A stretch of DNA of 64,000 nucleotides from Polytrichum commune. Lineage: Eukaryota; Streptophyta; Polytrichopsida; Polytrichales; Polytrichaceae. The translations under genes were made by a program, and so were the position numbers. The stretch lies in NCBI GenBank assembly GCA_950295325.1, contig OX485809.1, forward strand, positions 39,837,081 to 39,901,080, read 5' to 3'. A model generated the notes under the pieces. It was given only the letters and a program-made list of their open reading frames with translations, searched no databases and was not told where the DNA came from. Shown piece after piece: positions 1 to 29,992 of the stretch (its first letter is position 1; each line of letters starts with the position of its first letter).

Positions 1-528
1 CCTGACAGAATTCCCCGTTTTCTGTTTATTGTAGAAAATGCGCATCTTTCAATGCCCCTCTCATACCCCAGCCGTCATATGTCTTAGTCTATGATATTTA
101 ATATTTTTTTGGTTTTGTGTGTATATGACATACGACATTGGGAGGAAGGGTGGCGGCCACATTAATTTTTTCAAGTGTCACAACGGTATATTTTAACCAA
201 TATGTATACCCAACCACAACTCCATTCAATGCTTTCAAGTGCAAACCTATTTAGGTGGGGTTGGGGCCATTTGGAGGTTGCAATTATGAGAGAGTTTCCA
301 AGGCTTGAGGCCATTGTCATGATGAATAAAATTATTTATTTGTCTCCCCTAAACCCTAAACCCTAGAACATTGCGGCTCTGTTATCTCGCATGGAAGTGT
401 GGCAATGATAAACGTATGTGGACGTTGTTAAGGGGATACTAACTAGCAATGTCGCTTTTTGGTTCAATCTTTTAATGTTATTTCAATCCATCCTCAAGTT
501 CACTTCAAGTTTACTAATGTGTGTGACC
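1..528. other. AT-rich non-coding DNA
   Basis: No credible gene is visible. A short plant telomere-like tract (two CCCTAAA units) lies near 347-363. The small open frames here start with non-ATG codons and resemble nothing I know. Confidence 0.5.
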
Positions 529-1363
529 AAAACATCCAAAGTTGGACCCTAAACCCTTATAACATCCACAACATGAAATACGTATTGACAAAATACAAAA
601 CCAATTAGTATATCATGTTTAAACGTCCCAAATAACATATTAACATGATCAAGATTGTATTTACTATAACCTTCCTATTAGACTCTTCTTCATATTATGC
701 AAACAATATCTGTTATATCTTTCTCCATTATCCAATACATGTGGAGGGAACAATGAATAAGAACATGATTGCGTGAATGGCTTCATTTGATGTTGTGCTT
801 CTCTTATTTACTTTTGCATCACATTCCATATATTAAATACATCATGAACCATGGTTTATTGGCGACTATGTGATTCCCTAAAGTGAGCAAAACATCCAAA
901 GTTGAACCCCTTACCCCTAATAACATCCACAACATTTCATGTTATTTGAATAAACACAAGACCATTCACTATATCACGTTTAAACGTCCGTAATAACAAA
1001 TAAACATAATCAAGATCGTCTTTTCTATTACCTTCCAGTAAAAACCTATTCTCACCAGTAAGTCAATGTTATATGTTAATATTGGATAGATTAATATGTT
1101 ATAAACCTAACTCCTAAACCCTAAACCCTAAACCCTAAATACAAAAATTCGTAGTTGTTCACTGCTACCTCCACATACAAACAACATGAACTTTATCTTG
1201 CGCCATTATGTAATATACGTGGAGGGAACATTCAATAACAACATGATTGCGTCAAAGGGCTTCATTTGATGTTGTGGTTCTCCGATTTACTTTTATATCA
1301 CATTCGAAGTACATATATCACGATCCATGGTTTATTGGCGACTATGTGATTCATTCAAGTGAG
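529..1363. repeat. Diverged tandem duplication (about 365 and 475 bp)
   Basis: The block at about 529-890 is repeated at about 888-1363. Landmarks shared in the same order are AACATCCAAAGTTG, CATCCACAACAT, GTTTAAACGTCC, GTGGAGGGAAC, GCTTCATTTGATGTTGTG and TGGTTTATTGGCGACTATG. The copies differ at many sites, so the duplication is old. The second copy carries about 110 extra bp (roughly 1050-1160) that include the telomere-like tract. Confidence 0.8.
1108..1138. repeat. Interstitial telomere-like repeat
   Basis: Three to four CCCTAAA units sit in the middle of the extra segment of the second duplicated block. This is the plant-type telomere unit. Because it is internal and short it is an interstitial tract, not a chromosome end. 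Confidence 0.75.
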
Positions 1364-1799
1364 TATGTAAGGGATTTACTAAAAACTTGAGCATGTTAGC
1401 ATTTCGACATAAGGATCATGCAATTCCAAACCCTAAGAAAATGCTCTTGGGGAAGGTATACATTTAGCAAACACATTCAAATATCCTAAATTTCCGAATT
1501 TCATGTTGGGGGACGGGGGTTATATTTTTTATTCATTGCATATTGTGTGAGTTCTTGGCATCATTGGTAAAGTCTAAATGTCAACGATTACATCGTTAAA
1601 TGTCACGCAATTGTATTATTTTTCTAACTTGCTCAAACAAAAGAGAAACCAATGATTTCAACTTGTTTGGGAAATTTAGGTTATGGTGTCATGTGAGTAG
1701 GGGTTAAGTCTTAGTTTTAGCATAACGTTGCGTTGTAAAAATGCATTAGTTGTATAAATGGTTTCATTTTGTAGAATACCGCATTTGATGTGCACCTTA

Positions 1800-2330
1800 T
1801 GGGGCATTCCCACTTGACATTAGTTAGAAGTAGTATTAGTCTAAATGCGGTTTTAGTTATCTAGGTTTCACACATATGGCTCTTTTTAGTGCCGAGCCTA
1901 GGTGGCAAATGATGTGGCATGGCTTAAAAGTGGAGGTTTTAAGCCTCAACCACCGACGCTCCCATCGGTACCTAAACATTAGGCAAGAATATAGGAATTT
2001 TAAAAGTGTCGCCTCCCACCCTTGTGATTGGTTGCTTTTTAGTCTTAGCTATGAGGGCACGAGGAGCTTCATTAACAAAAACCGATGGTAAGATAGGTGA
2101 GTAGTAAGGCATTTGGGGATGGGACAAAAACTACCCAACATTCATTGCTTGGTAGATAAAACCATGAACATGTGTGAAAGCTACTTAACTAAAACCTACT
2201 TGAAAATCTCCGGAGCAAGTTCTTGTAGGTGCATTGGGATAGTTGGATGCCTCCGCTATAACCGAGGGAGCTTTACCCGGTCTTTATAAAATAGTGAGGG
2301 TCTTAACTAAAGTCAAGTGGGAATGCCCCA
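1800..2330. mobile_element. PIF/Harbinger-type (Tourist-like) MITE
   Basis: The left end TGGGGCATTCCCACTTGAC (from 1800) is the exact reverse complement of the right end (2312-2330), and similarity continues a further 8-10 bp inward. The element is flanked by the 3-bp direct duplication TTA at 1797-1799 and 2331-2333. A TWA duplication with G-rich termini is the hallmark of PIF/Harbinger. It has no transposase. The 71-codon open frame inside (1876-2091) is not recognisable and is probably chance. Confidence 0.85.
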
Positions 2331-2384
2331 TTAGGGTACTCCGAAGTGTCTTGAAAATACTAATGCCCGCTAAGGGTTTACAGT

Positions 2385-2900
2385 TTGGCTTTAGGATTTA
2401 GGGTTCCCCGTAATCCTAATTCCGTTGGTGCCCTAATCCCGTTGGCACCCTATTCGTGCGGTTGGGGGCCAATTCCCGAGGCATACAAAACCCCAGCCGT
2501 CACAACTTTTCGCTCTTTCTCTCTCTCTCCGCGCCAAGCATTCGCTCCGCGCCTCTTGTGGAAGCGCCGCCTCTCCTGAAGCGCCGCTTTCGCGAAGCGC
2601 CGTGGCGATTCAGGGTGGCGATTTTCTTCTCTTCCCTCCCTTCTTGTTGCTTTGGCGCCTACTGATTCTTCTCCTTCCCTCCCTTCTCTTGCTGTAGAAG
2701 TTAGGAAGTGTTTGCAATAGAACAGAAACCTAAGGAGAGAGTTTTAGAGTGCGTGAGAGTTAGTAGAGTGATTGTTGTAGAGTGAAGTAAGTAGAAGATT
2801 GTTGAAGGGTTTTCCAACATTCTAAGCTTGCGGGTTTTGGAGGCTGTATTGTAGTTGGAGAGTTTGTGAGATTTAGGAGTTCTATAAGATAATCAGGAGG
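2385..2900 (+). promoter_or_regulatory. CT-rich and GC-rich leader-like region
   Basis: Base composition changes abruptly to a CT-rich and then GC-rich stretch (CTCTCTCTCTC near 2516, repeated GCGCCGC motifs at 2560-2605), followed by purine-rich GAGAG sequence. This looks like the 5' leader and first intron region of a plant gene. It lies directly upstream of the gene island beginning at 3945. A TATAAAATA string near 2285 lies inside the upstream MITE. No start site can be fixed. Confidence 0.3.
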
Positions 2901-3297
2901 TGTTTGAGAGATACAAAAGTCATTTGAGAGAGTCAGTCATTGTTTTGAGAGATTCACTTGTTCTTGGGGATTCAGAGGTTGTTTGAAACACTCAATTGTT
3001 GTTTGAGAGATACAAAAGTCATTTGAGAGAGTCAGTCATTGTTTTGAGAGATTCACTTGTTCTTAGGGATTCAGAGGTTGTTTGAAACACTCAATTGTTG
3101 TTTGAGAGATATCTAAGTCATTTGAGAGAGTCAGTTATTGTTTTGAGAGATTCACTTGTTCTTAGAGATTCAGAGGTTGTTTGAAGTATTGAATTGTTGT
3201 TTGAGAGATTCAAAAGAGATCTAGGAGTTGTATGAGAGATTGTGGATTTGTGTGAGAGGTTACATTCAACTGTTTCTGTGTTATTGGAAGAAGAACA
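2901..3297. repeat. 99-bp tandem repeat, four partial to full units
   Basis: Units begin with TGTTTGAGAGAT at 2901, 3000, 3099 and 3198, a spacing of exactly 99 bp each time. Each unit has GAGAGAGTCAGT, TTTTGAGAGATTCACTTG and ATTCAGAGGTTG in the same order. The last unit is truncated and diverged. The unit is a multiple of three, but every frame I checked on the plus strand meets a stop, so I treat it as non-coding leader or intron sequence. Confidence 0.85.
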
Positions 3298-3462
3298 CCT
3301 GTTCTAAAGCAACTGTTTACAACAACTGCTACATACAACAAAGGTATTTTCTTTTATTATATGCAATAAGTGTTTGTCAATTGAAGGTATTGTAGCATAC
3401 ACAACGCATAAGCATTGTATATGCTACGTGCCAACTTTTAAAAATTACATTAAAATAGGAAA

Positions 3463-3657
3463 GTTTGGGGAGACGACCCAAACACGGCCACAGGTTTGGG
3501 TCGGTCGACCCAAACACAGCCTCTTGTTTGGGTCGACCGACCCAAACACAAAACAAAGCATCATGTTTGGGCCGAACGACCCAAACACAGCCTCTTGTTT
3601 GGGTCGACCGACCCAAACACAAAACAAAGCATCATGTTTGGGCCGAACGACCCAAAC
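3463..3657. repeat. Palindrome array A: six copies of a 22-bp inverted repeat
   Basis: Six 21-22-bp copies start at 3463, 3494, 3526, 3565, 3597 and 3636. The left half is GTTTGGGTCGA-like and the right half CGACCCAAAC-like. The copies at 3526 and 3565, with their spacers, are repeated as a 71-bp block at 3597 and 3636. A seventh, lone copy lies at 3897-3918, 26 bp before the first ATG of the gene island. The array sits in what looks like the intron or leader upstream of 3945. Confidence 0.95.
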
Positions 3658-3896
3658 AACGTCTTCTAATTATAAACTCATAAAGAAATCCATGATTTTT
3701 GCATCAATATAAAATTCACATCCACTAAAAAATAATAATCAAGGAATGTATTAAGGAAAAATATCAAGTAATCCTGCATGTCACAAACAATATAAAATGC
3801 AAATCCACCCAATAATCAAAACATTCTTATTATCAATACAAATGATGCTGAAATATATAAATATACAATCCACCTAAACCTATTCATGTCGTAGAT

Positions 3897-3918
3897 GTTT
3901 GGGTCGAACGACCGAAAC
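3897..3918. repeat. Single 22-bp palindrome copy next to a splice acceptor
   Basis: The half-sites are GTTTGGGTCGA and ACGACCGAAAC, with a mismatch in the right arm (CGAAAC for CCAAAC). It lies just before the pyrimidine-rich acceptor TTTTCTTACAG at 3934-3944, which immediately precedes ATG at 3945. Confidence 0.9.
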
Positions 3919-3944
3919 TAACATTGCACATTATTTTCTTACAG

Positions 3945-5270
3945 ATGGCTCCAAAGAAAAGACCCGGCGAAAGGTGGTTCATGCCTGCGCCGGACATGTT
4001 GTGGCAGGAGCACGAAACCCCGCAGGATGACTCCTATTCCCCTAAGGACGGGCTTGTCCTCGCGTGGTCTATACAAGTGGTTAAGGGTTCGCAATACAAA
4101 ATGATTTTTGTTGTGAAGGTTGGGACCGTGGAGAAGCACACATGGGCTACTCTTACGGGGTGGGAGGTGGCATCGGTTTAGTCTCTTGGAGACTACGTGG
4201 ATGTCATCATCGAGAACAACGCTGTCCAGAACGCGCATATGTTTATGCACCAGTTCTCCGAACCCTTTGACGCTATCTATGCAAAAGAAACATGTGTAGA
4301 ACCAGACGTCATCAAACCGGAGTCCATATTCATCGATAACAGTACATCGAACACAAAGGTGTCGAGCAGATTCACGAAACTAAAGCATGCAATCAGCGTG
4401 CTCAACAAAGCCCTGCAGAGCAAAACCAAGTCTCAGCAACCCGTGAGGCGGAAAGCAACCACAGAGGAAGGAGCAGGGTCGTCAAGACCTCAATCGGTGA
4501 GGAAGCCGCGACCAGTACCGGCTGACTCGCGGAGGACCACTCCCTCCCAAACACCTGCGGATAGCGAGACGCCTACACCTTCTGGGAGCCGTCAAACAAC
4601 TCCATCCAAGAGGGGGAGAGAGTCATCTGTGATGACTGACGAGCCAGTCTCACCGGAGTTGCGCATGCCGAAGCCCGGCGAAGAGGTGGATGCAGGGGAG
4701 CTGCAGAAAATCGTGAACAATTTCACGACGAAATGCTCCCACTGTTTTTTCATGGGCAGGGATTTTAAGTTCGACGTGAACATCAGCCAGTGCCATCTAG
4801 CGCCACCGGAGAAGTGTGTCCGGGCAAAGGAGGACGCCTACGTTGACTGGATAATCGCGCAGATCGTTTGCGAGCAGTTTAAAGACGACAGGCAAACGAT
4901 AGTAGTGATGCCACAGGGTCTCAAGAAAATGCCTACACCTGAAATGTGGCCCACAATTCAGAAGGGCGATTTTTGGCTCATAGACGGCCAGCACAGCGTG
5001 GAGGCATCCAAGAAAATCCAACTCATGAATGAGTGGGATGATCCGAACAATCAGAAGGAAAAGCTGAAGGTTTGGAAGGCACTAGTGGTGTGGTCTGACG
5101 ACGAGACCAAGCTCAGCGACATCTCCCGGTACTTCAATATGGGAAATAAGAAGAGGGCCTACCAAGCTTCTTGGATAAGGAATATCATGGCCTCGCGGGA
5201 GGTGTGGGAGTTCTATGGTAGGCCTCCCAAGGAGAGGGAGAATGCGAAGGACAAGAATCCCAAATGGGAG
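3945..5270 (+). CDS. ParB-like domain protein, exon block 1 (in-frame TAG)
   Basis: The frame opens at ATG 3945, directly after an acceptor (TTACAG), and stays in one frame to a GAG|GTGAGT donor at 5270/5271. It is broken once, by TAG at 4179-4181. The N-terminal part is not recognised. The middle (about 4400-4680) is Ser/Thr/Pro/Arg-rich and probably disordered. The C-terminal part contains FWLIDGQHSVEASKK (about 4970-5015), which resembles the ParB/sulfiredoxin-type box (hydrophobic-IDGxHR-xxA). It follows an acidic-aromatic helix region (YVDWIIAQIV) and precedes DISRYFNMGNKKR. Members of that fold bind nucleotides or cut DNA, but the function here is unknown. The usual Arg after the box His is Ser. 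The exon is markedly GC-richer than the flanks. The 442-codon length counts read-through of the TAG, which is either a nonsense mutation or the boundary of two short proteins. A track-style start at 4197 would be GTG and is not convincing. Confidence 0.6.
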
Positions 5271-5573
5271 GTGAGTATTGTTTAGGTCGACCGACCCAAA
5301 CTCCTGATGCAGCCTTGTTTATTTAGTTTGGGTCGACCGACCCAAACTCCTGATGCAGCCTTGTTTATTTAGTTTGGGTCGACCGACCCAAACTCCTGAT
5401 GCAGCTAGTTTATTTAGTTTGGGTCGACCGATCCAAACTCCTGATGCAGCTAGTTTATTTAGTTTGGGTCGATCGACCCAAACTGTTGTTGCAGATGTTG
5501 GTCATGATATGGGTTGGAAATCACATGTACATATCTAACACGCATTCAAATGTTCTGTTTTGTGGACGTGCAG
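5271..5573 (+). other. Phase-0 intron filled by a palindrome array
   Basis: The donor is GAG|GTGAGT at 5271 and the acceptor GACGTGCAG ends at 5573. The frames on both sides meet at codon boundaries. The first palindrome begins only 9 bp inside the donor. Confidence 0.75.
5280..5483. repeat. Palindrome array B: five copies, 45-46 bp period
   Basis: 22-bp copies start at 5280, 5326, 5372, 5417 and 5462. The spacers are near-identical (TCCTGATGCAGCC... TTTATTTA), so this is a local tandem amplification. Centres vary between CGACCGA and CGATCGA. The first copy has TTTAGG for TTTGGG and the fourth has GATCC for GACCC. The spacer differs completely from those in arrays A, C and D. Confidence 0.95.
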
Positions 5574-6905
5574 GATTTCAAATACCAAATGATCAACAAA
5601 TTCTCCTCCATTGATAATTCGAGCCACAAGCAGAAGAAATACAGCGACCTCAAGGGGGAGATTTACTTGATTATAGCATCTGACTCAGTTTGGAGGAAGT
5701 GGAAAACCGTGTTTGAAAAGCACGAGACGGGGGATTTGATCGACCCCGACACTGGCATTTTCTTCAGCCAAACCTCGCGCTTCAAGCAGATGAAGCCTCT
5801 CGTGAGAGAGTTCTTTAGAACTCTTCAAGGGCTGTCAGAGACGGAGGTGGAGAAGGCGGCATCTCACATCCTGCACGTGGCACCCACGGCGAAGAGGTGT
5901 TGGGTGCACCCGAAGATTGTCTTCTAAAAGCCCAAATCCTTCGTTCCTTCATGCTACACCATGAAGGAATGGACGGATAACAGGAAAAAGAAGACGACTA
6001 TCGTGCAGGAGCTGTATAAACTAGTGCCAGAGAGGAATATTGTCGTGGACGGCGAGGTCCATGAGGCTAACTGGAGAGCATTCAAAGCTGAATATAAGTT
6101 CACCAGTGCCTCCATGGCGGCTCTAATAGGGGAAGCGGGGGACGACTTCTTGCGGGCCAAGATGGTGAAGGGTGGGAAGAACCGGGCGCTTCCGGATCAC
6201 ACAGCGCGTGCGTTCTCGAACTTCATCAAGGAGAAGAAGATTGTCCAGTTTGAAGGGGAAGCGTACTTCAACCTTGTCACCGCCGACCCGTTGAAAATTC
6301 AGGGCTGGCCAGGTCAAGACGCCAGAATGGCGATAAGGACGAAAGTAAGGGACCGCTTTCCTTTTGGGATGATTGATTTCAGGAATATTCTTGGAAGCTC
6401 ATTTGAGGGCACGATGAGCACCCTCTTCTATGACCCCTTCCTATCTAAGTTCGTCGATTATGCAAGCCCTAAGTTCAGGGAGGTAGATATCTGGCTTTGG
6501 ATAGTCGAGGATAGGAGGGCGGAGCAGGTGTACGAGCTTGTCCGGAAACTGCAGCCGGAGTATGCAGTCTCCAAGTCTCACTACATCGCCACACCGGCGG
6601 AGGGAGCTTACACGACGTTGAGGGACAAGAAGACCAAGTTCGTCAACGTCTTGTGTTTGTACTTCGTGTACAAAGCGGAGTTGCTGAAGGTGCCGAACCA
6701 CCCTATATCCCGGATGGACAAACTCTTCCAAGTTCCAGAAGGGTTGGGTGTCAACAAGTGCCTCTACGACGAGGCTAAATACGCGAACTATCCTTTAGAT
6801 GAGCTGCGGATGGAATTTTACGTGAGAATGATGAGGACGCTGACGAGGAGAGGGGATTGCATCTTCAACGTCTTCGGAGGCTCTAAACCTATCTATGCTG
6901 CCATG
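5574..6905 (+). CDS. Uncharacterised protein, exon block 2 (in-frame TAA)
   Basis: This block is joined in phase 0 to the preceding exon (acceptor CAG|GATTTC) and ends at the donor GCCATG|GTAAGC (6905/6906), also phase 0. One frame runs the whole way but is interrupted by TAA at 5925-5927. ATG at 5961 reopens the same frame 33 bp later, so this could be two proteins or one with a nonsense change. The protein is mixed alpha/beta with many aromatic and charged residues (WRKWKTVFEKHETG, WLWIVEDRRAEQVYELV, DELRMEFYVRMMRTLTRRGD). I see no transmembrane segment and recognise no family. High GC matches the neighbouring exons, supporting one transcription unit. Confidence 0.55.
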
Positions 6906-7169
6906 GTAAGCGACTTTCTATAACTCGTGCGCAGTTTGGGTCGATCGACCCAAACTAGGCTCTGTGTTGGTTTGGGTCGATCGACCCAAACTAGGCTCTT
7001 TGTTGGTTTGGGTCGATCGACCCAAACTAGTCTCTTTGTTGGTTTGGGTCGATCGACCCAAACTAGGCTCTTTGTTGGTTTGGGTCGATCGACCCAAACT
7101 ACACATTGTACTTGGTCTTGTTTATGTCCCTCGCCTAATTCTAATGTCTATATAACTTGGATTGTGTAG
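6906..7169 (+). other. Phase-0 intron with palindrome array
   Basis: The donor ATG|GTAAGC at 6906 and acceptor ATTGTGTAG ending at 7169 join codon boundaries. More than half of the intron is the palindrome array at 6934-7099. Confidence 0.75.
6934..7099. repeat. Palindrome array C: five perfect palindromes, 36-bp period
   Basis: Copies start at 6934, 6970, 7006, 7042 and 7078, exactly 36 bp apart. Each is a perfect 22-bp palindrome with half-sites GTTTGGGTCGA and TCGACCCAAAC. The 14-bp spacer (TAGGCTCTTTGTTG and close variants) is itself repeated, which rules out a CRISPR-like array. Confidence 0.97.
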
Positions 7170-8654
7170 ATGTCGGGGCTGAGTATATACTCCTACATAG
7201 AGGATGGCGATCTGCCATTTTACAGGACGCAGAGATCGTTGGCGAAGAAGATGGACATCCTCGATTGGATCCCGGGTAGCTACGTCGACGAGGTTGTTCA
7301 GGGGGGCGAAAACCCTCTTGATAGGGTGAGGCGGATCAACCCGGAAGAAATGGCCATGAGGGCCACAACCCAAGAACCCGAACCTCTTGTCGGGTTGCAT
7401 CCGGGCAATCCGTCCCGCACAGAAGGTGGCGATGTCGAGGAGGAGGAGGAAGAAGAGGAGCACGAGGAGGCGGAGAAGGAAGGCGACGTGGAGGAAGGGG
7501 CAACGGGCTTCACGCAAGAATCCGAAGCCCCTCAACGGAAGAAGGCGATGCGGGCGGCAACCCCGCAAAGTAAGCTCGTGCCCGTCCTGACGGTGGACGA
7601 TGCACGGGACATGTACTCCAGGGACGCGACCGCCACGTTCAGGGAGAGGAGGAAGATGAAGGGGAAGAAGCTGTATGGCGACTACTCCGTGGAGGAGACC
7701 ATTGCCATAAGCAGCGAGGACGACGATGACATTGAGCTCGCCAAACGGCTAAGATCAGATCCCCCGTCCCCGACAGCGTTCGCTGGCATGGTTAGGGTGA
7801 AGCCCGAGGTCCTGACTGTGGAGGAGGCGAACGAGAAGATGAGGAGGGATGAGGAGCAGCGAGTCCGCCTGCAGAAGGCTGCCGCGGAAGAACCCTCAAT
7901 GCGGAACGAGGTAGCAGAGCTAAGGGCTCTCCTGTTGGAGCAGGAACGACAGAGGGCGATGGCCCAACCTCCGTCCCACGCCGAATTGATATCACAAGTG
8001 ATACAAGGAATGTGGGCGCAAGGTTTGGTGGTGGCTCCCTCCAGCTCCTTCCCGCACTTGCCCCCCGGCTTCCCTCCGCAGAGCATCCCTCAGCAGCCTG
8101 TGCCGCAATCGTCTTTCAGCTTCCAGCACTTGATTCGGCCCCACCAAGTTCCGTACGCGCCGGTCCAGCAAGTGGATGACCCCAACATCTGGCGCGTCTC
8201 TGGAGCCTCCTCCCCTTTGGGCCCTCCACCACTTCGGCCCCCGATAGTCATGGCGCCCCCTCACCAATCGGACGACCCCAGGATGTTTGGGTCGACCGAC
8301 CCAAACCCACCATCCACTGGAGTGTCCGAAGGGCCCTCTCCAGATGCAGGACAGTTTGGGTCGCCCGACCCAAACCCCGTTGCAGCGCAGTCCTCCCTTG
8401 ACCAACATGGGTGTCAACTAGACACGGCCATGCTAGATGTTGAAGGCTTGCAAGGGCCTGGTGATACCTCTACTCCTAACCAAATCGATGAACCCATGCA
8501 TGATGCAAATGCGGAGATTGGTTTAGGACAAGGGCCTGATGCCGATCGTTTGCAGGAGAAGGTTCCTGACGTCGTCGGAGAAGGCGGTGGCGAGAGAGGC
8601 GGGGCAGCGGGGACGGTGGAGGCTTCCACATCGTCGAGACATGACCAGGGCGAG
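7170..8654 (+). CDS. Acidic and proline/glutamine-rich linker exon block 3
   Basis: The exon is open throughout, phase 0 at both ends (acceptor TGTGTAG|ATG, donor GGCGAG|GTAATA). Features in order: a short hydrophobic/aromatic start (SGLSIYSYIEDGDLPFYR); an acidic run of glutamates at about residues 90-105; a second acidic patch (SSEDDDDIELAKR) near residue 180; a charged, possibly coiled-coil stretch with MRRDEEQRVRLQKAAAEEPS and LRALLLEQERQR (about residues 225-265); then a Pro/Gln-rich tail. Two 22-bp palindromes are read here as coding sequence, giving FGSTDPN and FGSPDPN (near residues 374 and 397). It looks like a disordered regulatory linker. No family is recognised. Confidence 0.55.
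8285..8375. repeat. Two 22-bp palindromes inside coding sequence
   Basis: The copies are 8285-8306 and 8354-8375 (centre CGCCCGA in the second). The palindrome contains no stop codon in any of six frames, so it can sit in an exon without breaking it. Both copies are read in the same frame. Confidence 0.9.
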
Positions 8655-9150
8655 GTAATACACTGAGCCCTCCCCAGTTTGGGTCGACCGACCCAAACTT
8701 GCTGGGTCATTGTCTTGTTGGCGTGGTCGTGTCCCCCTTGCTAGGAGGAAATGCACACCCCCTGCCCCCCATGCTCTACACTTGCTCCCCCTCCCCCCAA
8801 CGTGCCCCCCCGCGATCCCCTTCGTCTCACCTGCACTCGACTATGCTCGACCTTGGCGGCGCGCAACCAATTTTGTAGATGTAGAATTAGGATAGTGTGA
8901 ATGCCCTCGTTCACCGCGGTCCCCCCCCCCCCCCCCAATCAAATTGTACATAGAGATTTGTAAAAATAAAATTATTATTTTTGGCGCCCATATGTTTGCA
9001 TCCGTGTCCCAATGTATGTTGTTCCCCTTGTATGTTTTTGTTGCCACCAATGGTCCAATTCTTCTTGTGTTTGCACAAAATTTCCGTTCTGCTTGAGATG
9101 GACATAGCATAACATAGTCCTCGTCCGCCTTCTCTCGCTCGTCGCCGCAG
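8655..9150 (+). other. Intron with one palindrome and a 16-C tract
   Basis: The donor GAG|GTAATA (8655) and acceptor GCCGCAG ending at 9150 are both phase 0. The intron contains a 22-bp palindrome at 8677-8698 and a run of 16 C at 8921-8936. The splice join is inferred from phase and sequence only. Confidence 0.55.
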
Positions 9151-9957
9151 GGTTCGGAGCATAGCGTCGCAGCTCCCCACCGATCCTCTCCGAGGAGTGT
9201 GGAGGACAGCGCGGTGGTCCCCCCGATTTTGCCCTCGCCACCTTCGCCTCCCAAGACCCGGTTCCTGGTGCTAGACCTCAACGGGGTCCTTGTCCAGTGC
9301 GTGCATTGTCCGAGGGTCCCCACGGTGCCTTTCTGCAAGCCCGAGGACGCCAACTACGATGGTCCCCCCGCGTACATCAAAAGCAAGCTAGTGTACCTCC
9401 GCCCGTGGCTTCGGCGCTTCCTGCAGGTCGCCCTATCCAAATGGTGGGTGATTGTGTGGAGCTCATCCGAGAACACCCAGGCCGTCGTGGAGTTCATCTT
9501 CAAGGGACTCCAACCCCCGTGCTTGGTCCTAGGACAGGACTCTTGTAGAACGTTATACACCCCCGAGGGCAGGGTTGTGAAAAAGCCCAACAACCCCGCC
9601 GTAAACCAATTTCTTAAGGTCTTGAAGCCAGTCGTATGGGACCAGCGTCCGACCATGGTCGGCTGTCCCTACGACGTTCGCCCCACCCGTGACAACACGT
9701 TGATGGTGGACGACAGCGCTTCCAAAAACATTTTGAACCCGACCTCGAACTTCATAGTTTGCCCCACGTGGACGGTCGAGAAGGTCCGAGACCGCTTTTT
9801 GTTAGACCTACTTAAGTACATTCAAACGCTCGTGGGGAGCGGACTACCCGTGCCCCGGTTCCTTAGTTGTAATCCGATAGGCGAAAGATACATGGATCCG
9901 AAGGACTATATGTACAGAGAGTTGTACGCTCACGCGAAATATAATAAACTCATTTGA
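9151..9957 (+). CDS. FCP1/NIF-type HAD phosphatase domain, exon block 4
   Basis: From the acceptor at 9150 the frame is open to TGA at 9955-9957. The domain opens with FLVLDLNGVLVQC (about 9260), the HAD motif I in the DLNG variant seen in plant NLI-interacting-factor-like proteins. KWWVIVWSSSENTQ is the motif II region. A Lys-rich KKPNN patch follows, and NTLMVDDSASKNILNP (about 9694-9740) is the motif with the second acidic pair. FCP1/SCP-type domains remove phosphate from Ser/Thr, classically on the RNA polymerase II tail. Here motif I has Asn in place of the second Asp, as in many plant relatives, so activity is uncertain. A GTG at 9199 is not needed as a start because the frame continues upstream to the acceptor in phase 0 with block 3. 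The TGA may be the true end of this gene. Confidence 0.75.
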   Translation, partial: GSEHSVAAPHRSSPRSVEDSAVVPPILPSPPSPPKTRFLVLDLNGVLVQCVHCPRVPTVPFCKPEDANYDGPPAYIKSKLVYLRPWLRRFLQVALSKWWVIVWSSSENTQAVVEFIFKGLQPPCLVLGQDSCRTLYTPEGRVVKKPNNPAVNQFLKVLKPVVWDQRPTMVGCPYDVRPTRDNTLMVDDSASKNILNPTSNFIVCPTWTVEKVRDRFLLDLLKYIQTLVGSGLPVPRFLSCNPIGERYMDPKDYMYRELYAHAKYNKLI

Positions 9958-10076
9958 GATACTACATGGTGTGCCATTGTGTGTGATATATTATGCCTCA
10001 ATTGTATATCGATTTTCACATGCTCCCCCCTCCCCCCCTCCCCTTGGGTTTTGTTTTGTTTCCTTTTTTGCGCCAG
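9958..10076 (+). other. Possible intron with strong pyrimidine tract
   Basis: A long C/T tract runs directly into CGCCAG at 10076, a good acceptor. I found no convincing phase-0 donor before the TGA at 9955, so the join to the previous exon is unresolved. There is no palindrome in this gap. Confidence 0.35.
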
Positions 10077-10430
10077 CGTTTGGAGCCCTCGATTGAGATT
10101 GTCAGCGAATCAAACTTGGGGAGCTTCTTCTACGAGACCGTCTACGATGCCGCGTCCACCATCGACTACTCCAAGGAGCCTATCGACGCCGGCGTCGTCG
10201 ATAGCCCCCCACCCAAGCAAATCTTCCGGCCATCTCCGTCCCCGTCGCCGCTCAAGGGCATAAATCGCAAATGCGTCCGGACGTCCCCGTCTCGGCCCGG
10301 CGGCAGTAGTACACCTCAACGGCGGCTGCGGATGGACGCTCGGCCTACGAAGAGTGGCACCCTTCCTATTCCTTTGCGGGACGCATTGCCCCTCCTCGCC
10401 GACTCCGACGGGAACGCCCCCGGTGACAAG
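10077..10430 (+). CDS. Uncharacterised exon block 5
   Basis: The block is open from the acceptor at 10076 to a GACAAG|GTGAAC donor (10430/10431), phase 0 at both ends. The encoded segment starts LEPSIEIVSESNLGSFFYETVYDAA and becomes Ser/Pro/Arg-rich (SPPPKQIFRPSPSPSPLKG). It is probably disordered. Composition matches the upstream exons. It may be the C-terminal part of the phosphatase gene if the TGA at 9955 is a mutation, or part of another gene. Confidence 0.4.
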
Positions 10431-10564
10431 GTGAACCCCCCCCCCCCCCCCAAACATGGTTAACCGCGCATTACAATCATCCGGCACTTAAAAAATGAAC
10501 GTGTGACACGTTTGGGTCTTCCTCCCTAAACTAACACGTGTGTTCTTGCATTGACGCGTTGCAG
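10431..10564 (+). other. Intron with 16-C tract and degenerate palindrome
   Basis: The donor is AAG|GTGAAC and the acceptor GTTGCAG ends at 10564; both sides are phase 0. It holds a 16-C run at 10436-10451 and a 22-bp degenerate palindrome at 10510-10531 with half-sites GTTTGGGTCTT and CCTCCCTAAAC. Confidence 0.5.
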
Positions 10565-10879
10565 GTTGCTCCCACCCGTAAACCTATGCGGGCTAGTGCG
10601 TCCGTCGAGTTGGAGCGTTTCTACTCCATGACCAGAAATGCAAGACAGTCCACTTCATCGTATTCGAATTCTTCGTCGTATAATTCGGGCGGCCGACGGA
10701 ATCCAAAATGTGTTTTTGATGGCGGTCACCCCAAGAATGGCTATAGTCGCGGGGCGGAGATTTTCAGGAATGTTGAAGCAATGCGAGCAAAAGAAGCCAC
10801 AGCAAAAGAAAAAGAGGCAAAAGAAAAAGAGGCAAAAGAAAAAAAAAGCAAAAGAAAAAGAGGTAGTCTCCGAGGCTAG
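10565..10879 (+). CDS. Basic C-terminal exon block 6
   Basis: The exon runs from the acceptor at 10564 to TAG at 10877-10879. It has a Ser/Tyr/Asn-rich segment and ends in a strongly charged Lys/Glu/Ala repeat (AKEKEAKEKEAKEKKSKRKR), which could be a nuclear-localisation-like helix. The repeat is simple at DNA level (AAAAGAAAAAGAGGC units at about 10803-10860), so its length may be unstable. No family is recognised. Confidence 0.45.
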   Translation, partial: VAPTRKPMRASASVELERFYSMTRNARQSTSSYSNSSSYNSGGRRNPKCVFDGGHPKNGYSRGAEIFRNVEAMRAKEATAKEKEAKEKEAKEKKSKRKRGSLRG

Positions 10880-11421
10880 ATAGGCCATAGTAGGCGTAGG
10901 GTTGTGGGCCATAGGCAAGAACATTTTGGGTCGCACTATCCAATGGATGTGTGGTGTTAGCATGCTATGCATTTTACATGCCACACTTTGTATGTTTTTT
11001 TTGCAATAATATAAGTGTCACATGATTTCCCCTTCCATATGGTCTAAGGTTTGGATTGCCCTACCTAAACCATCACAAATATGAGTTTGGAATATTTTGT
11101 ATGTTATATTATATTGGTTGACATATTTCCCCTTCAATATGATCTATGGTTTGGATTGCCCTACCTAAACCATATTCATACAAGTTTTTGTGCGATAATA
11201 TGAATGTTTTAAGATTTCCCCTTCAACTTGGCCTAAGGTTTGGATTGCCCACCCTAAACAATCCCAAATATGAGTTATTAATGGGGATCTTGTTCTAAAC
11301 ACCCGCTTCAAAGTGTTCGCATCTTACAACTTTCTCCAATATGTGTTCCATTTATCCTTGTTCTTATTTTTGTGAATGTCTCAAAATGCCCAAAAAGTCT
11401 CAATTTAACGAATATAGTGTT
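10880..11421. repeat. Downstream array D of degenerate palindromes
   Basis: Three 22-bp copies at 11049-11070, 11149-11170 and 11238-11259 keep the outer GTTTGG...CTAAAC arms but have a different centre (ATTGCCCTAC or ATTGCCCACC). Each is preceded by TTTCCCCTTC and a conserved stretch, so the units form a tandem repeat with 100- and 89-bp spacing. A further decayed match (TTTTGGGTCGCACTATCCAA) lies near 10925-10945. No gene is seen here. Confidence 0.8.
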
Positions 11422-13337
11422 ATTGGGAACGTTCGCTATCTCCTTCCCATCGGTTTTCAACCACATTTGCTAATGTGTTATGCAAACGATATCTGCGGAA
11501 TGTATTATGCATCAAAATCTCTGGAATGTGTTATACGCCAGTCTCAAATCCAAAAATGTGTTATGCACTAAATCCAAATTTACAAATGTGTCATCCGTCA
11601 TATTCATGTTTACGAATGTGTCATGCACTAGATCCATATTTATAAATATGTCATGCGTCATATTCATATTTACAAATGTGTCATGCACAACATCCAGATT
11701 TACAAATATGTCATGCGTCATTTTCATATTTACAAATGTGTCATGCACAAGATCCAGATTTACAAATGTGTCATGCGTCATATTCAAATGTGTCATGCAC
11801 TTGATCCAAATTTGTGAATGTGTCATACATCATATTCAAAATTTCAAATGTGCTATGCACTACATCCAGGTGGAGGACGTTAAGTACCCCCCCACGAACT
11901 TTTTGGGGGGGGGGGGAATATTCTGTTAGGGGCAACTGCCCGTCAATTTTTCTGCACCCGACCGAAAATTGCTGCCCGCCCGCCCGACTTCGAAAAAACT
12001 ATTGTACTTGCATTTTTGAAGGCTACTTGTCCACAAATCCCATATTGAGTGCACTTCATTTTCAAGGTCTCAAATCCAATATATATGTTCACTTTCATTG
12101 AGTAAATAAGCAATTGACTGGATTTCATTTTCAAAGTGAAACCGCCAATAAAGCATGTAATAAACTTGGAAGTCAAAAATATTACAAATTCCTCATTATC
12201 ATTGAGGTTATAATCTTTGTCACTTACAATTGAAAGGGACTTTGTCATTCTAAAGTGAAACTCAAATTGAAGATTTTTTAAATTTGTGAATAGTTTAATT
12301 ATATATATATATATAAAATATAGTTAATACCGACTACTATCACAAATTTTTCATACGCATTTAAACTAGTTAAGTAAGATTGCATGCAACTAAGTCTAGT
12401 AATTTTTGATTTATCACAATGCTGATTTTAAAAGGCTTAATTAGGATAAATCAGAAATTACTAGACTTAGTTGCATTCAATCTTACTTAACTAGTTTAAA
12501 TACGTATGAAAAATTTGTGATAGTAGTCGGTATTAACTATATTAACTATATAGTTAATATTAAATTATTCACAAATTAAAAAAATCTTCAATTTGAGTTT
12601 CACTTTAGAATGACAAAGTCCCTTTCAATTGTAAGTGACAAAAATTATAACTTCAATGCTAATGAGGAATTTGTAATATTTTTGACTTCCAAGTTTATTA
12701 CGTGCTTTATTGGCGGTTTCACTTTGAAAATGAAATCCAATCAATTGCTTATTTACTCAATGAAAGTGAACATATATATTGGATTTGAGACCTTGAAAAT
12801 GAAGTGCACTCAATATGGGATTTGTGGACAAGTAGCCTTCAAAAATGCAAGTACAATAGTTTTTTCGTAGTCGGGCGGGCATGCAACATTTTTCGGTCGG
12901 GTGCAGAAAAATTGACGGGCAGGATCAAGTGCATGACACATTTGAATATGACGCATGACACATTTGTAAATCTGGATCTTGTGCATGACACATTTGTAAA
13001 TATGAAAATGACGCATGACATATTTGTAAATCTGGATGTTGTGCATGACACATTTGTAAATATGAATATGACGCATGACATATTTATAAATATGGATCTA
13101 GTGCATGATACGTTTGTAAATTTGGATCTAGTGCATGACACATTCGTAAACATGAATATGACGGATGACACATTTGTAAATTTGGATTTAGTGCATAACA
13201 CATTTTTGGATTTGGGACCGGCGTATAACACATTCCAGAGATTTTGATGCATAACACATTCCGCAGATATCGTTTGCATAACACATTAGCAAATGTGGTT
13301 GAAAACTGATGGGAAGGAGACAGGGAACGTTCCCAAT
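11422..13337. repeat. About 1.9-kb inverted repeat (foldback element, copy 1)
   Basis: The left arm (11422-12415) is the reverse complement of the right arm (12445-13337), with a 29-bp loop at 12416-12444. Matching landmarks are ATTGGGAACGTTC at the outer ends, CCTTCCCATC, AACCACATTTGCTAATGTG, and AACTAGTTTA near the loop. The left arm has about 130 bp extra (roughly 11800-11935), including a G-tract. Outer arms contain a 30-bp tandem repeat (ACAAATGTGTCATGC units). No transposase is encoded. The long open frames on both strands are mirror images produced by the 30-bp repeats. Confidence 0.9.
11575..11800. repeat. 30-bp tandem repeat inside left foldback arm
   Basis: Alternating units read TTTACAAATGTGTCATGCACAAGATCCAGA and TTTACAAATATGTCATGCGTCATATTCATA style sequence, giving a 60-bp higher-order period. 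The mirrored array is at about 12945-13200. Confidence 0.8.
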
Positions 13338-23548: not shown

Positions 23549-26500
23549 TTATAATGGGGGGGGGGGGGCCGCACAGGGGGTTGGGTTGAAAAAAATGAGG
23601 GGTTTGGGTTGGAATTGAGTTCAACCGGTGGCCGCACAAGGAGAAAAATTTCAACCTAAAGAAAAATTAGGGCAAGTGGTCCCCCCCCCAATCCTAAAGT
23701 TTCTCCAAGTGGTCCCCCCCAATCCTAAAGTTTCTCCACCGTGGTCCCCACATCCGGTTGAAATTTTAACACTAGTTTGCTCAAATAAGCTCAACGGTGG
23801 AATTAGTACCGTTGAGCTTATTTGGCCAACTTGGGTTGAAATCTCAATCCACATTCAAGGATGTGAATCAAACAATAATACATTCATCCTCCCTATTTTG
23901 AGGCGTTTAAGGGGTTAAGGTTTCTTGGTAGACTTCACAAGTTTACACCTTTTGAGTTTAACCCCTAAAGGCCCAAGGGGTTTGGGAAAACCCTTGTGTT
24001 ATAAATTATGCATTTCATGACAGTTATGAAATTTTGCTCAGATTAGTATGAAGACCTTAATGCCTAAATTAGATCAATGCGGTCAAAATTCTTAAAATAA
24101 ACATCATTTATTTTATAGTAAATTAAAGAGACTATAAATTTGAAAATCAATAGAAAATACACTTTATTATAAAATCATTTCTTGTACAATCATTTGGCCT
24201 TTCATTATTCAATTTATGTATTTTAGGCTCTACCTGAAAATTTGATGTAGTCCATGATGCTCTCTCTATTCAATCGAGCACTATACATATGCGTTTCCAT
24301 GGTCTCCACTACTTCTCCACCTAAGAGGACGCCTTCACTTTTAAGATCATCTGGAATGCCTAAATATGCTTTAATTTCAGTTAAAGTCTTATCTTTGCTC
24401 GCAATCAAAAAATTGTGAAGGATTGCACAACACTTACTTACGTCCACTAGAAAATCAACTTTCAATTTAGATTTGCAATTTAACTCTTTGAACCTTTCTT
24501 TTAAAATTCCAAACGCTCGTTCTACAACGACACGTGTTTTACTATGATGTGTATTGAACATCACATAATCAGTAGTAAGCCGCATACCCGGATTTGGCTT
24601 AAAATGTGTTATAAGCCATGTTGTTAAAGGATAAGCTTTATCTGCAATTATATAGGGATGTATGTTTACGTGCGGATTGAAAACATTGGGTGGGCAATTA
24701 AGTCCATTTAATTGCCCATTTACAGCCATATTGTAAAATTCAGTTTGCCGAAAGTAAGAAGAGTCATGATTTCGTCCTGAAAGTCCAACATGAAGATAAG
24801 TGAAGCAACAATTTGCATCCACTACAGCTTGCATGATAATACTATAATGTCCTTTTCTGTTTTTATAATCTTCTCGGCGTGATTTATGAGGAGGTCCTTG
24901 AATTGATATATGTGTTCCATCCAAAGCTCCAACACAATTAGGCAATCCTTGCAAAGCCTCAAATTCCTTAGCAGTTTCTTGAAGTGTTTGTAAACTTGGC
25001 CAATCTACCATGTATGATAGATTATGGTTCACAGCTTCAACGAACTCCCTCAAAATTGAATGAACAGTTGATCGACCTATTCCAAATATGTGGGATACCA
25101 ACTTCACTCTTGCTCCACTCATTAATTTAAACAATGCGCATGCAACCCTCTTCTCCACACTAATTGGCAATCTTCAGTTTGTATTTTGCTTCTGCAAACT
25201 TCTTCTAAGCATATTGCACAAATTTGTGAAGGTTTTTTTTTTACAATAAAGCAAATCAAAAAATAAATCAGGAGGATAGTCGTTCATCAAAAAATTGGTG
25301 AACCATATCATACATCTTGGCTTAACATACCAACGATTTGCCCGCTCAAGCAATGGCTTCTTCATAAGAATAAGGAGTTGCAAATATTCCATGACTATAT
25401 GGTTGAAGGTGTCTTCTTGGTCACAGTCGATGTAAAAATTGTCCATTAGTAAGTTTTCATCATTATAATGATGAAGAAATAGTTCACGTGATGAAGTTTG
25501 TTCCATAATATTTGGTAAAACTTCATTCATTTGAAGCAAAAATGTAGAACACGAAGCTCTTATTAATGTCAGAGGTATCTTCATTTCTTTTTTTTGTTGA
25601 GGAGACATATTCAATATAGGTACTGGAACATGGTACGGCTCATCCAAAGGGTTGAACTCTGTTGTTTGAACTGTACGTGAAACACTTGGTGTTTCATCTT
25701 CAATTTCCATGTCATCTACCATACGATGAGCTCCATGTCTTTCGAACTCTTCATTGTAAATTTGTATTGGAGTTGGTTCATATTCTTTTGGTGGACTATT
25801 TGCATTCCTCAATGTGTCAATAGTATCAAGTATAATTCTTCGCTTCATAACTATATCAGATGCTGAGAACCAATGCCGTGAAAACTGCAACCAATAATGA
25901 CTATGTTATGAAATATAAAATTACAAAAAACATTGTACCGTGTATACATTACAGATTAACTTGTACATGTTGCTATGCATTTTTATAAATTTTATGGAGA
26001 ATGTACAAAAGTTATATAGAGCGCTTACAAAATATGGATATCCATCATTTAAGCTGAATTTCAATGGAGCTGATTGGAAAAAAAATTCTGCAAAATGAAG
26101 TACGTACAGTCCGCAATCATACCCATTTATTTGTTGAGGCACCTGGAAACATTATAATTAAGTAAGTTCATTGGTACCACATTGCAAAGTAGAAATACAT
26201 TGTAATTTAAGGTTTTTCAAAGATTTCACAGTGTTTTAATCACAACGCACACTTACTTACCTCAACTGTAATAAATGGTATACTAGTGATTGCATTCGCC
26301 AAACGATCACTTGGCAAGCAATTCATTTCTTCTATATAGTGTTGAATATACCTACAATAAAAAAAAACTTGTTGATTCCTTGGTACTTACAAATCAATGT
26401 TGAGCAAAAAAATGGTTAAGGGGTAATTTGTGGTAAGCAAAAACAAAAAGGGAAGATAACCCAAATCAATGGTCAATAGAAAAATACTTAAGGTAATCCA

Positions 26501-27976: not shown

Positions 27977-29013
27977 GGCTTTGTCCTTTGCTAGGAAAGA
28001 CTACAATTATAGATGTCCACTTTGCTCATGCGAATCCATGGCTATTCACTATACCAAACCTTTCTTGGATTTTGTGCACCTTCTATTCAAATACGGGTCA
28101 AGGATTGAAGTTACTCATTTATCACCCAAAAGTTTTAAAATAAATAATCAAGAACTGCTGAAATAACTATAGTTAACTAGATTTCTTTCAATGCATTTTG
28201 GGGAGCACTTGTGTACATATATATAAAAACTATAGTTAACATCCACATTACTTAAAGTGGACCAAAAATAACAAGAACAAGTAACGTCTAGGTGTGAACA
28301 CAAAGTGGTTAGGAAATTTGCTCTTGAAACGAAGAAGTTGATGCATAGTCTCTTTCCTACAGACAGAGCCAATAATTAATTAAAAAAAACAATATACTTG
28401 CATGGAGCTAATGGAAGAAGATTAGTGGTACTTACTGCATATAAAAATCAATGATACAGTCATTGAGATATATTTCTGGTTGCAATCTATGAACATCATC
28501 TTGTTTAATTTCAATCTCAAAATTGGTATCTGGTGACTTATAAAATAGTAAAGTTGAATTTGATGTTGAAGCCATAGTTGATCAGTGTATGTTATGAAGT
28601 CTACTTCATAACAAGGGTGAATCTCTATGTCTATAAAATACATATACAAATTACAATTTTTAAAGGCCCTCTTTACCATATATAATGTATATCTTTCTTT
28701 TGCTTTAAAGTAAAAGCTTTATGTGTGAAAAATAGGAAAGTCTTATAATTATAAGTGCATTTTGAGTTTCATAAAATATATATACATGATGGCATTACAT
28801 TTTTAGAGAAGTGAATGATAACTATCAGACTTTACGTTTTATTTTATTTTATTTTAAAAAGAAAAAGATAACTATCATAAAGGTATAAATATATCCATAA
28901 ACATGTTCAATGTATATGTTATTAAACCAATTTGAAAGTGTTATTTTGAGTTCTTAAAATTTTTTATTATATTTGAAAACTCCAATTTTTTCATAACCTG
29001 TCAATTAGTAAAC

Positions 29014-29992
29014 ATGGACAAAGAACCAATAAGTCCTAAAGGTGAAGTACATGTGGATTTAGGGGGGGCCGAAGATACAGAAGAGCATGAGGTAAAAGGA
29101 CCAAAACAACTTGAAGAAAAAGGAAAAAGATTTGTATGGAATAAACAACAAACTATGGTGTTGATCCAATGCAAAATCCGTGAAGAGAAAGGAGAAAAGG
29201 TGGAAACTGGAGATAGTAAATTCAGGAGTCGGAATGAAAAATGGGGTGAAATTATAAGTCACATGAAATCACTTCCAATGTTTATGGGAATTGATGTCAC
29301 CGTAGACAGACTAGTTAACAAATGGGACAATTTACAGAAGCAGTACAACAAGTTCAAAAGATATATGGATCACACATCAGGGGGTGGAGATCCGTGGCAA
29401 TTAAATCCGAAAGATTTGAAAAAAGTTGGCCTTCCTTCAGGTTTTACCAAAGATATGTATGATGAAATGAATGAATGGTACGGTAAATCAGGAAAGTTTC
29501 AAGAGAATGTTCATACGCTGGATACGTTGAAGAAGCCTGAACATGTTGATGTTGGAGAAATTTCAAGGCGTGAAAGAAATGAGGACAATGACAAGTCAAA
29601 ATTAAAAGGGAAAATTGAGACTATAGATGTTGGAGAAGGTATTGAAAGGTCTAAATTGAAGCGAAAAGTTGAAACTACAAATATTGGAGAAGCTTCAAGT
29701 GGACGCAAAAAGAAGATTGATCCAGAAGTAGAAGAGACTTTGTATCTTTTAAAACAAAGAGATCAAACACTAAGTGAAAATCTTGAAGCTCAAGCAAGAT
29801 TTCGAGACACAATGCTTGCAAATCAAAATGAGAGACACCAAAGTTTCAGTGGATTTGGAGAGAAGACGTTTGGACATTGAAGAGCAAAGGAACAATATAA
29901 TGGTGACACAAGTTCAAAGTCTTTTAGCTATAGCAAATAATTTGGCGACGTCTTTGGGTGTAATAGTAGATAGTTTGAAAGAAAAACCTTAA
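29014..29992 (+). pseudogene. Harbinger Myb/SANT-like DNA-binding partner (frameshifted)
   Basis: The frame begins at ATG 29014. Residues about 36-125 form a Myb/SANT-like (trihelix) domain: KRFVWNKQQTMVLIQC, then RNEKWGEIISHM, then VDRLVNKWDNLQKQYNKFKRYMD, with conserved Trp spacing. A Lys/Glu-rich region follows. Around 29832-29850 the reading shifts by one base. Frame 1 stops at 29880, while frame 2 continues as VSVDLERRRLDIEEQRNNI, QSLLAIANNLATSLG and stops at 29990-29992, which looks like the natural helical C-terminus. In PIF/Harbinger elements this protein binds the element ends and brings the nuclease to them. It is transcribed away from the transposase gene. Confidence 0.8.

Follow-up and report, generated by a model that had tools for sequence, protein, structure and literature searches.

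How selfish DNA evades host silencing without unleashing other transposons is an open question, and, to our knowledge, VANC, of the Mutator-like VANDAL elements of Arabidopsis, is the main worked plant example of such an escape. The VANC proteins belong to the DUF1985 family. They are described as binding short motifs in VANDAL transposons and causing a loss of methylation, a coevolution with the motifs being proposed (PMC5735166, PMC10398659); introns and upstream regions contain the motif arrays, which evolve as tandem repeats and differ between families (PMC5735166, PMC10398659), and VANC6 motifs also occur in one unrelated, non-VANDAL element (PMC5735166). Here, we analysed a stretch of 64,000 nucleotides of Polytrichum commune (assembly GCA_950295325.1, contig OX485809.1, positions 39,837,081 to 39,901,080 of the forward strand; hereafter, the window), in which a sequence-only reading had noticed a 22-bp palindrome repeated 24 times, in and around one gene island. 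The palindrome is a built-in tag of a large DNA transposon present in hundreds of copies, and other transposons in the same genome carry different tags of a like kind, which suggests that each transposon encodes a protein recognising and controlling the members of its family.

This organisation resembles the VANDAL/VANC system in that short motifs, specific to a family, are arrayed in introns and upstream DNA, both in the window element (DUF7869 family 1) and in a second DUF7869 family (family 2); in the evolution of these arrays through tandem repeats; in the presence of different motifs in related elements, namely family 1 against family 2 and among Mutator-like loci; and in the sharing of a motif with an unrelated element, as described for VANC6 and seen here for the window palindrome, which is found in two transposon types. 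It differs in that the sites are palindromes of 20–32 bp, that the window element is a DUF7869 transposon with a 4-bp target site duplication (TSD) rather than a Mutator, and that no accessory protein here matches the Pfam family that makes a protein a VANC. With the CACTA (En/Spm) elements and their TNPA protein, the window element has in common its large size, the many copies of a motif and an extra DNA-binding protein, which is putative here; a parallel divergence of the CACTA DNA-binding proteins and their repeated motifs has been described (PMC2613891). Lastly, DndB, a bacterial protein with the DGQHR motif, binds, within its own promoter, palindromes of the form TACG-N10-CGTA (PMC4507180). 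The likeness to DndB is that of a DGQHR-motif protein acting on CpG-containing palindromes, the binding by the plant proteins being putative; DndB is bacterial and has no significant sequence match to the plant proteins. The likeness to the DGQHR or ParB-sulfiredoxin-like proteins is limited to the DGQH/DGNHR and FxxxN-like motifs, as described in PMC4619093.

As part of a transposon, the finding is ordinary; what is unusual is what it implies, namely family-specific palindromic operator sets in at least two transposon kinds of one genome. We know of no published description of such palindrome arrays; none was seen among the papers listed from one open-access library, in which most subscription articles and every preprint are lacking, and no paper on DUF7869 or on ParB-like domains in plant DNA transposons was found there. 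The logic known from VANC appears here to have emerged in further transposons that use different proteins, and the length of the palindromes makes the sites countable genome-wide and the binder readily testable. About ten different palindromes, together with related candidate proteins, would also provide ready data on the DNA-recognition code of a protein family that is so far uncharacterised.

The Palindrome Consists of Two Fixed Arms and a Free Centre

The palindrome unit is GTTTGGGTCG-NN-CGACCCAAAC, in which two arms of 10 bp are fixed and the 2 bp at the centre are free. In 175 sites from the window and the element copies A, C, D and F (up to four arm mismatches), the consensus letter is kept at each arm position in 152–175 sites, and the central two bases alone are free, with 11 different central dinucleotides. 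The 11-bp half-site proposed earlier is, therefore, reduced to 10 bp, and what is conserved in the 22-mer is the pair of arms, the central 2 bp being variable. Nineteen of the 24 listed copies lie within three mismatches of GTTTGGGTCGATCGACCCAAAC, between positions 3494 and 8698 of the window (0 in 100 shuffles), with spacings of 32/39, 45–46, 36 and 69 bp, as the sequence-only reading had it. Of the remainder, the copy at 3463 is a degenerate 21-mer and that at 10510–10531 is a degenerate palindrome-like site which, with six mismatches, is distinct from the 22-mer, while the three copies starting at 11049, 11149 and 11238 (11049–11259) are subterminal repeats with a different motif, of the GTTTGGATTGCCCTACCTAAAC type; these last four copies are six to seven mismatches away from the 22-mer.

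No site was found at window positions 11425–64000 with up to four arm mismatches, in agreement with the earlier observation of none in the other 52 kb. The restriction to one island holds within the window only: the 407.8-Mb genome (64 contigs) contains 9,231 sites with exact arms, against 0 for a reversed-pattern control, namely the window palindrome read backwards, which is also a palindrome and has the same composition. The window palindrome is, thus, commoner than a palindrome of equal composition. Sites within two mismatches of the AT-centred palindrome number 11,947, and a scan of viral contigs with the window palindrome gave 0 matches.

The Sites Belong to a DUF7869 Transposon and Are Conserved in Their Arms

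What was taken for a gene island is the 3′ part of a transposon whose start lies outside the window. Positions 1–11421 (plus strand) were assigned to a DNA transposon of DUF7869 family 1 by BLAST to five other copies (A, B, C, D and F, B being read without its first kilobase) and by the terminal inverted repeat (TIR), the TSD and the element end. Window position 1 corresponds to position 5428 of locus A, in which the element spans A254–16706; the window copy starts upstream of the window and is represented by its 3′ 11.4 kb only, the TIR and TSD evidence coming from copies A, C, D and F. It ends in ...AACGAATATAGTGTT, with the 3′ TIR AAAAAGTCTCAATTTAACGAATATAGTGTT at 11392–11421 (minus strand). 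The complete copies measure 16,453 bp (A), 18,084 bp (C), 16,707 bp (D) and 14,429 bp (F), have TIRs with 30 (A) or 28 (C, D and F) identical bases (AACACTATATTCGTTAAATTGAGACTTT...), and are flanked by a 4-bp TSD in all four cases (TTTT, AAGT, TATA, GAAG). The leftward gene of copy A encodes a DUF7869 domain (PF25273, 4.6e-42) and is likely to be the transposase gene. The element, hence, combines the features of a DUF7869-type transposon, i.e., the domain, TIRs of 28–30 bp and a TSD of fixed length in the four complete copies. An assignment to CACTA was considered and rejected on account of the termini AACACTATATTCG, a TSD of 4 rather than 3 bp, and exact sites that are internal rather than subterminal. 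A genome-wide search for TIR ends with up to two mismatches gave 594 and 598 ends (control 0), which corresponds to some 600 copies whose ends can be recognised. Segment by segment, copies C and F are 75–92% identical to A.

Two copies at C1:26.48 and 26.57 Mb (L003+L004+L007 and L001+L002) are 99.94% identical over 15.4 kb; they lie in opposite orientation, about 90 kb apart, and one is without its first kilobase. Such a pair may reflect either a recent movement or a local duplication. The GTTTGGATTGCCCTACCTAAAC-type subterminal repeat occurs near both ends of the element, at element positions 192 (inverted), 16081, 16181 and 16270 of copy A, and also in copy C; in both copies, the repeats lie about 160–360 bp from the 3′ end, with an inverted relative near the 5′ end. 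The repeat is likely to be a transposase-binding motif.

The palindromes precede both divergent genes of the element and also lie within introns and coding sequence. In the window, gene 2 reads rightward (plus strand), and its exon limits were set by eye from the splice consensus, without transcript evidence. Upstream of it lie an array of five sites (3494, 3526, 3565, 3597 and 3636; 32/39-bp spacing), which together with the degenerate 21-mer spans 3463–3657, and a single site at 3897–3918, 26 bp ahead of the likely start codon (3945). Exon 1 (3945–5270; MAPKKRPGER...) contains LIDGQHS, which is DGQHR-like. Predicted intron 1 (5271–5573) holds five sites that begin right after the 5′ splice site, at 5280, 5326, 5372, 5417 and 5462 (45–46-bp spacing), and predicted intron 2 (6906–7169), which follows exon 2 (probable limits 5574–6905), holds five perfect sites at 6934, 6970, 7006, 7042 and 7078 (36-bp spacing). 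Exon 3 (probable limits 7170–8654) is acidic and of low complexity, and includes two coding sites (8285–8375, starting at 8285 and 8354), encoded as the codons TTT GGG TCG NNC GAC CCA AAC. A single site at 8677–8698 falls into predicted intron 3. Exon 4 (probable limits 9151–9957) encodes an NLI-interacting-factor (NIF)-like phosphatase domain (PF03031, E=1.1e-11), so that the order along gene 2 is the DGQHS motif, the acidic exon and the NIF-type phosphatase domain. The window copy has premature stops in exons 1 and 2; among the scored exon-1 matches (95 of 1,138 candidates), 63 are without stops.

In copy A, 34 sites were counted, with 16 in an array upstream of the transposase gene, five upstream of gene 2, three in intron 1, seven in intron 2, one in intron 3 and two in coding exon 3; at a wider threshold, which admits four degenerate sites near the 3′ end, the count is 38. 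The introns (955 bp) thus hold 11 sites and the coding exons (about 7.7 kb) two.

We then compared the four non-array sites, two of which are exonic, between copies. Between the window and copy C, only 1 of 80 arm positions is changed, against 5 of 8 central positions and 247 of 897 positions (27.5%) in the 120-bp flanks (Fisher p=6.5e-10); the comparison with copy F, which is not independent of that with C, gave 1/80, 5/8 and 252/900. At the two exonic sites, the window, D, C and F have identical arm DNA but differ in the surrounding residues and in the centre residue, the change of the centre being one between the window and C. The number of sites per array varies from copy to copy: the 36-bp array has three sites in C, five in D, five in the window and seven in A, and the 78-bp array has 11 in F and 17 in C.

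A Second DUF7869 Family Has a Different Palindrome in Similar Places

Family 2 was read at one locus of 25.5 kb (L037+L036+L035) and in a partial copy (L034) that is 99.8% identical. It has the same divergent gene order as family 1, and its genes presumably form one element. The transposase pieces are 40%, 52% and 33% identical to those of family 1, gene-2 exon 2 of copy A is 27.5% identical to its counterpart (3.5e-18), and the exon-1 domain is 22% identical (3e-8) and reads NGQHT. The phosphatase is 33% identical (9e-24); a DNA transposon that carries an NLI-interacting-factor-like phosphatase domain, and retains it in so distant a relative, is an observation in its own right.

The family-2 locus contains 21 sites of CCCACGGGTG-NN-CACCCGTGGG, 13 of them with perfect arms; this palindrome is also of 22 bp with the geometry 10-NN-10, and it occurs 644 times in exact form in the genome (control 0). 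The two palindromes do not mix: the window palindrome is absent from the family-2 locus, and the family-2 palindrome is absent from copies A, B, C, D, F and the window. The family-2 sites lie upstream of both genes and in predicted introns, intron 1 among them; one more is in coding exon 3 and encodes another peptide than the family-1 exonic sites do. The same geometry in similar places with different letters is the strongest evidence that the palindrome may coevolve with a binder.

Palindromes Are Also Present in Mutator-like Elements with a DGNHR Gene

The window palindrome (palindrome A) was also found at C1:475–478 kb (L016) and 2.154–2.160 Mb (L017), within a Mutator-like element, which measures 12.3 kb in L017. 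The ends of L017 form a 61-bp TIR at 87%, with a 9–10-bp direct repeat read by eye in this one copy, and a SWIM match (E=0.076) is below the cut-off. The window-type sites of L017 lie in the predicted intron of a transposase-like gene and in the region upstream of a gene whose product carries a DGNHR motif. The same locus has a second palindrome, ACCCTGTGCG-TTAA-CGCACAGGGT, whose NNNN form has 458 exact sites in the genome (control 0). The nearest relatives of L031 are L016 and L017 (48–49% identity, against 32–39% for others), and a CG-TTAA-CG core is common to the L031 palindromes and the TTAA palindrome of L017; for these reasons, the TTAA palindrome is probably the element's own and the window palindrome borrowed.

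Relatives of the DGNHR gene were then scored (150 of 1,189 and 150 of 1,187 candidates). Further palindromes are GGCATCTCGG-AT-CCGAGATGCC in L020, GTGTCTCGG-NN-CCGAGACAC in L021 and L023 (997 genome sites, control 0), GGGTTTCGG-NN-CCGAAACCC in L022 (35 genome sites, control 1) and CTGTCGG-AT-CCGACAG in L030; those of L025 (GGGTTTCGG-GA-CCGAAACCT) and L024 (GTTTCGG-CA-CCGAAAC) resemble that of L022. Repeated palindromes were seen in 9 of the 13 DGNHR loci picked by gene match alone, and in 11 of 15 when L016 and L017 are included, counts that require both a scan for imperfect palindromes and a scan with up to four mismatches using motifs from the same loci. By the exact-arm criterion alone (arms of at least 9, at least three palindromes), the number is 6 of 15 (L016, L017, L020, L021, L022 and L030), or 4 of the 13 unbiased loci. 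Together with L018, which has no DGNHR gene in the stretch read and stands outside the 15, L016 and L017 had been chosen through palindrome A and are, thus, not an unbiased sample.

Dinucleotide shuffles (10 per locus) gave 0–1 palindromes with arms of at least 9, compared to observed numbers ranging from 0 (in 5 of the 15 DGNHR loci) to 18, and five blocks of 10 kb each, taken from elsewhere in the window and with further transposons among them, gave 0–3 palindromes and no repeated family. The core TCGG-NN-CCGA, which was noticed in the same 15 loci in which it was counted, occurs 121 times in these loci (122 kb), a single array accounting for 36, and is absent from 50.6 kb of other window DNA. 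Most palindromes have a symmetric CpG pair; L029 and five of the six L019 sites keep only one of the two CpGs, and L028 has none. The CpG pairs fit a methylation-linked role but are no proof of it.

Two side observations concern these loci. L020 has a second palindrome type, GGTATTGGCGG-NN-CCGCCAATACC, in imperfect copies with a 65-bp period (7408–7563). In L026, an array of 37 copies of a 156-bp unit (1177–7000) lies upstream of the DGNHR gene, with only the short core TCGG-GC-CCGA, 36 times.

The Palindromes Are Probably Operators of an Element-Encoded Protein

On balance, we favour the view that the palindrome is a family-specific operator that binds a dimer and coevolves with a DNA-binding protein encoded by the element, with an anti-silencing role like that of VANC. 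We infer the protein binding, the identity of the binder and the anti-silencing effect from sequence comparison and from the VANC analogy. Sites for a dimer, with 10-bp arms and a 2-bp spacer, would be set many times in upstream regions, introns and an exon; the element-encoded protein would act in trans, binding them in all copies of the family to which it belongs; binding would, by analogy with VANC, most likely keep promoters and introns free of silencing marks; transposase and accessory genes would thereby stay expressed; and the coevolution of site and protein would give each family its own palindrome. Among the functions suggested by the sequence-only reading, a binding site for a dimeric protein is the best supported, given the symmetric arms, the free centre, the retention of the arms against the flanks, the presence of one and the same site in upstream, intronic and coding DNA, and its replacement in the relative by another palindrome with equal geometry. 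A silencing signal may have to be turned round, an anti-silencing tag being the likelier role. The idea of a tiny mobile unit finds no support: the examined sites ride inside transposons of several kilobases and amplify within local tandem repeats.

The candidate binder is the gene-2 protein with the DGQH motif (NGQHT in the distant relative) and, in the Mutator-like elements, the DGNHR protein; it was chosen because, of the gene types in the carriers, this one alone has a shared motif. By eye, family 1 shows DGQHS and FNMGN, L017 shows DGNHR and MHDIN, and family 2 shows NGQHT but no clear FxxxN. Searches of Pfam, NCBIfam and PDB gave no significant profile match to the DGQHR or ParB-sulfiredoxin superfamily, and Pfam searches of the gene-2 and DGNHR proteins revealed no accessory protein of the VANC family. 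In Pfam, the window gene-2 exon pieces matched only UvrD_C_2, at 0.075 and in the first 80 residues, and the DGNHR proteins had no match common to two or more members; a phage tail domain (0.0003) in 1 of the 13 DGNHR members was judged a chance match, values elsewhere being at least 0.033. A single-sequence AlphaFold model of window positions 4182–5282 is weak, with a mean pLDDT of 36.

Several results weigh against the operator view. The DGQH/DGNHR proteins have no convincing match in Pfam, NCBIfam or PDB, and hhalign aligns the two candidate groups around the motif only, with probabilities of 2.8 and 5.5%. The correlation between protein and half-site similarity is weak (Mantel r=0.26, p=0.079, 12 non-redundant loci); variants gave r=0.24, p=0.067 with palindrome A taken for group 1, and r=0.36, p=0.004 with 14 loci, in which the half-site of L027 was taken from L026, L027 having six TCGG-NN-CCGA cores and not the exact TCGGGCCCGA of L026. 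The first exonic site of copy A has one arm change, and the ends of the family-2 element were not located in the 25.5 kb read. Among the DGNHR loci, the palindromes of L031 (forms of GTAGGGCG-TTAA-CGCCCTAC) and of L029 (three copies of GTGCTTTCTG-CT-CCGAAAGCAC, with one mismatched pair) are imperfect, those of L019 are decayed, L026 and L027 have a short core, and L028 is without a clear palindrome. Moreover, the binder could be the transposase, as transposase genes accompany the same sites.

This last alternative, in which the transposase or a transposition helper binds the palindromes for excision and autorepression, like TNPA in CACTA, is the most serious one, although we consider it unlikely. 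The parallel divergence described for CACTA speaks for it, as do the sites flanking the DUF7869 gene and those in the predicted intron of the transposase gene in family 2 and in the Mutator-like element. However, the CACTA motifs are subterminal, whereas the exact sites here are internal and the element ends bear a different motif, and the palindrome is common to two transposon types whose transposase genes differ. That same sharing between two unrelated transposon types would be expected if a host DNA-binding protein read the palindromes and the transposons exploited it, with no protein of their own being involved; yet the whole site set differs between two relatives of one element type, and several palindromes coexist in one genome, whereas with a host factor one would expect a single site to be kept, which makes a host reader very improbable.

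RNA hairpins, acting in intron structure, as a source of small RNAs or in splicing control, would account for perfect inverted repeats of which many are intronic, those of intron 1 following directly on the splice donor. The earlier suggestion of such hairpins is weakened by sites upstream of genes and in a coding exon, and the free centre and the other sequence in the equivalent places of the relative also count against it, so that we give this explanation little credence. The possibility of functionless, satellite-like tandem repeats, with the palindromes as chance survivors of repeat turnover, draws on the expansion and contraction of arrays between copies. The carriers of the sites are indeed high-copy elements, and some of the sites form local tandem arrays, but single non-array sites are conserved against a 27.5% divergent background, the spacers differ between arrays, and shuffled loci yielded 0–1 palindromes; we regard this as extremely unlikely. 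Going further than the operator view, and rather more tentatively, one may envisage a 'password' system in at least two unrelated kinds of DNA transposon, in which each family would encode a DGQH/DGNHR protein, possibly a eukaryotic relative of palindrome binders of the ParB/DndB type, and would carry dozens of cognate palindromes that shield all its copies from silencing; families would diverge by exchanging entire site sets, and some elements would borrow the password of a second family in order to use its protein. In this full form, the proposal is possible but doubtful.

Neighbouring Features of the Window

Window positions 11422–13337 are taken up by a foldback element, a long inverted repeat that contains 30-bp tandem repeats and begins at the base after the 3′ end of the transposon. 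Upstream of gene 2, 99-bp tandem repeats without the palindrome lie at 2870–3227. A DDE_Tnp_4 transposase (24223–25905, minus strand) and a Myb/SANT protein (28936–29880, plus strand) are encoded further along, which we take to be the usual PIF/Harbinger pair, and a Ty3-type long terminal repeat (LTR) retrotransposon, whose gag-pol is a single open frame of 2,086 codons, lies at 51838–58098 on the minus strand.

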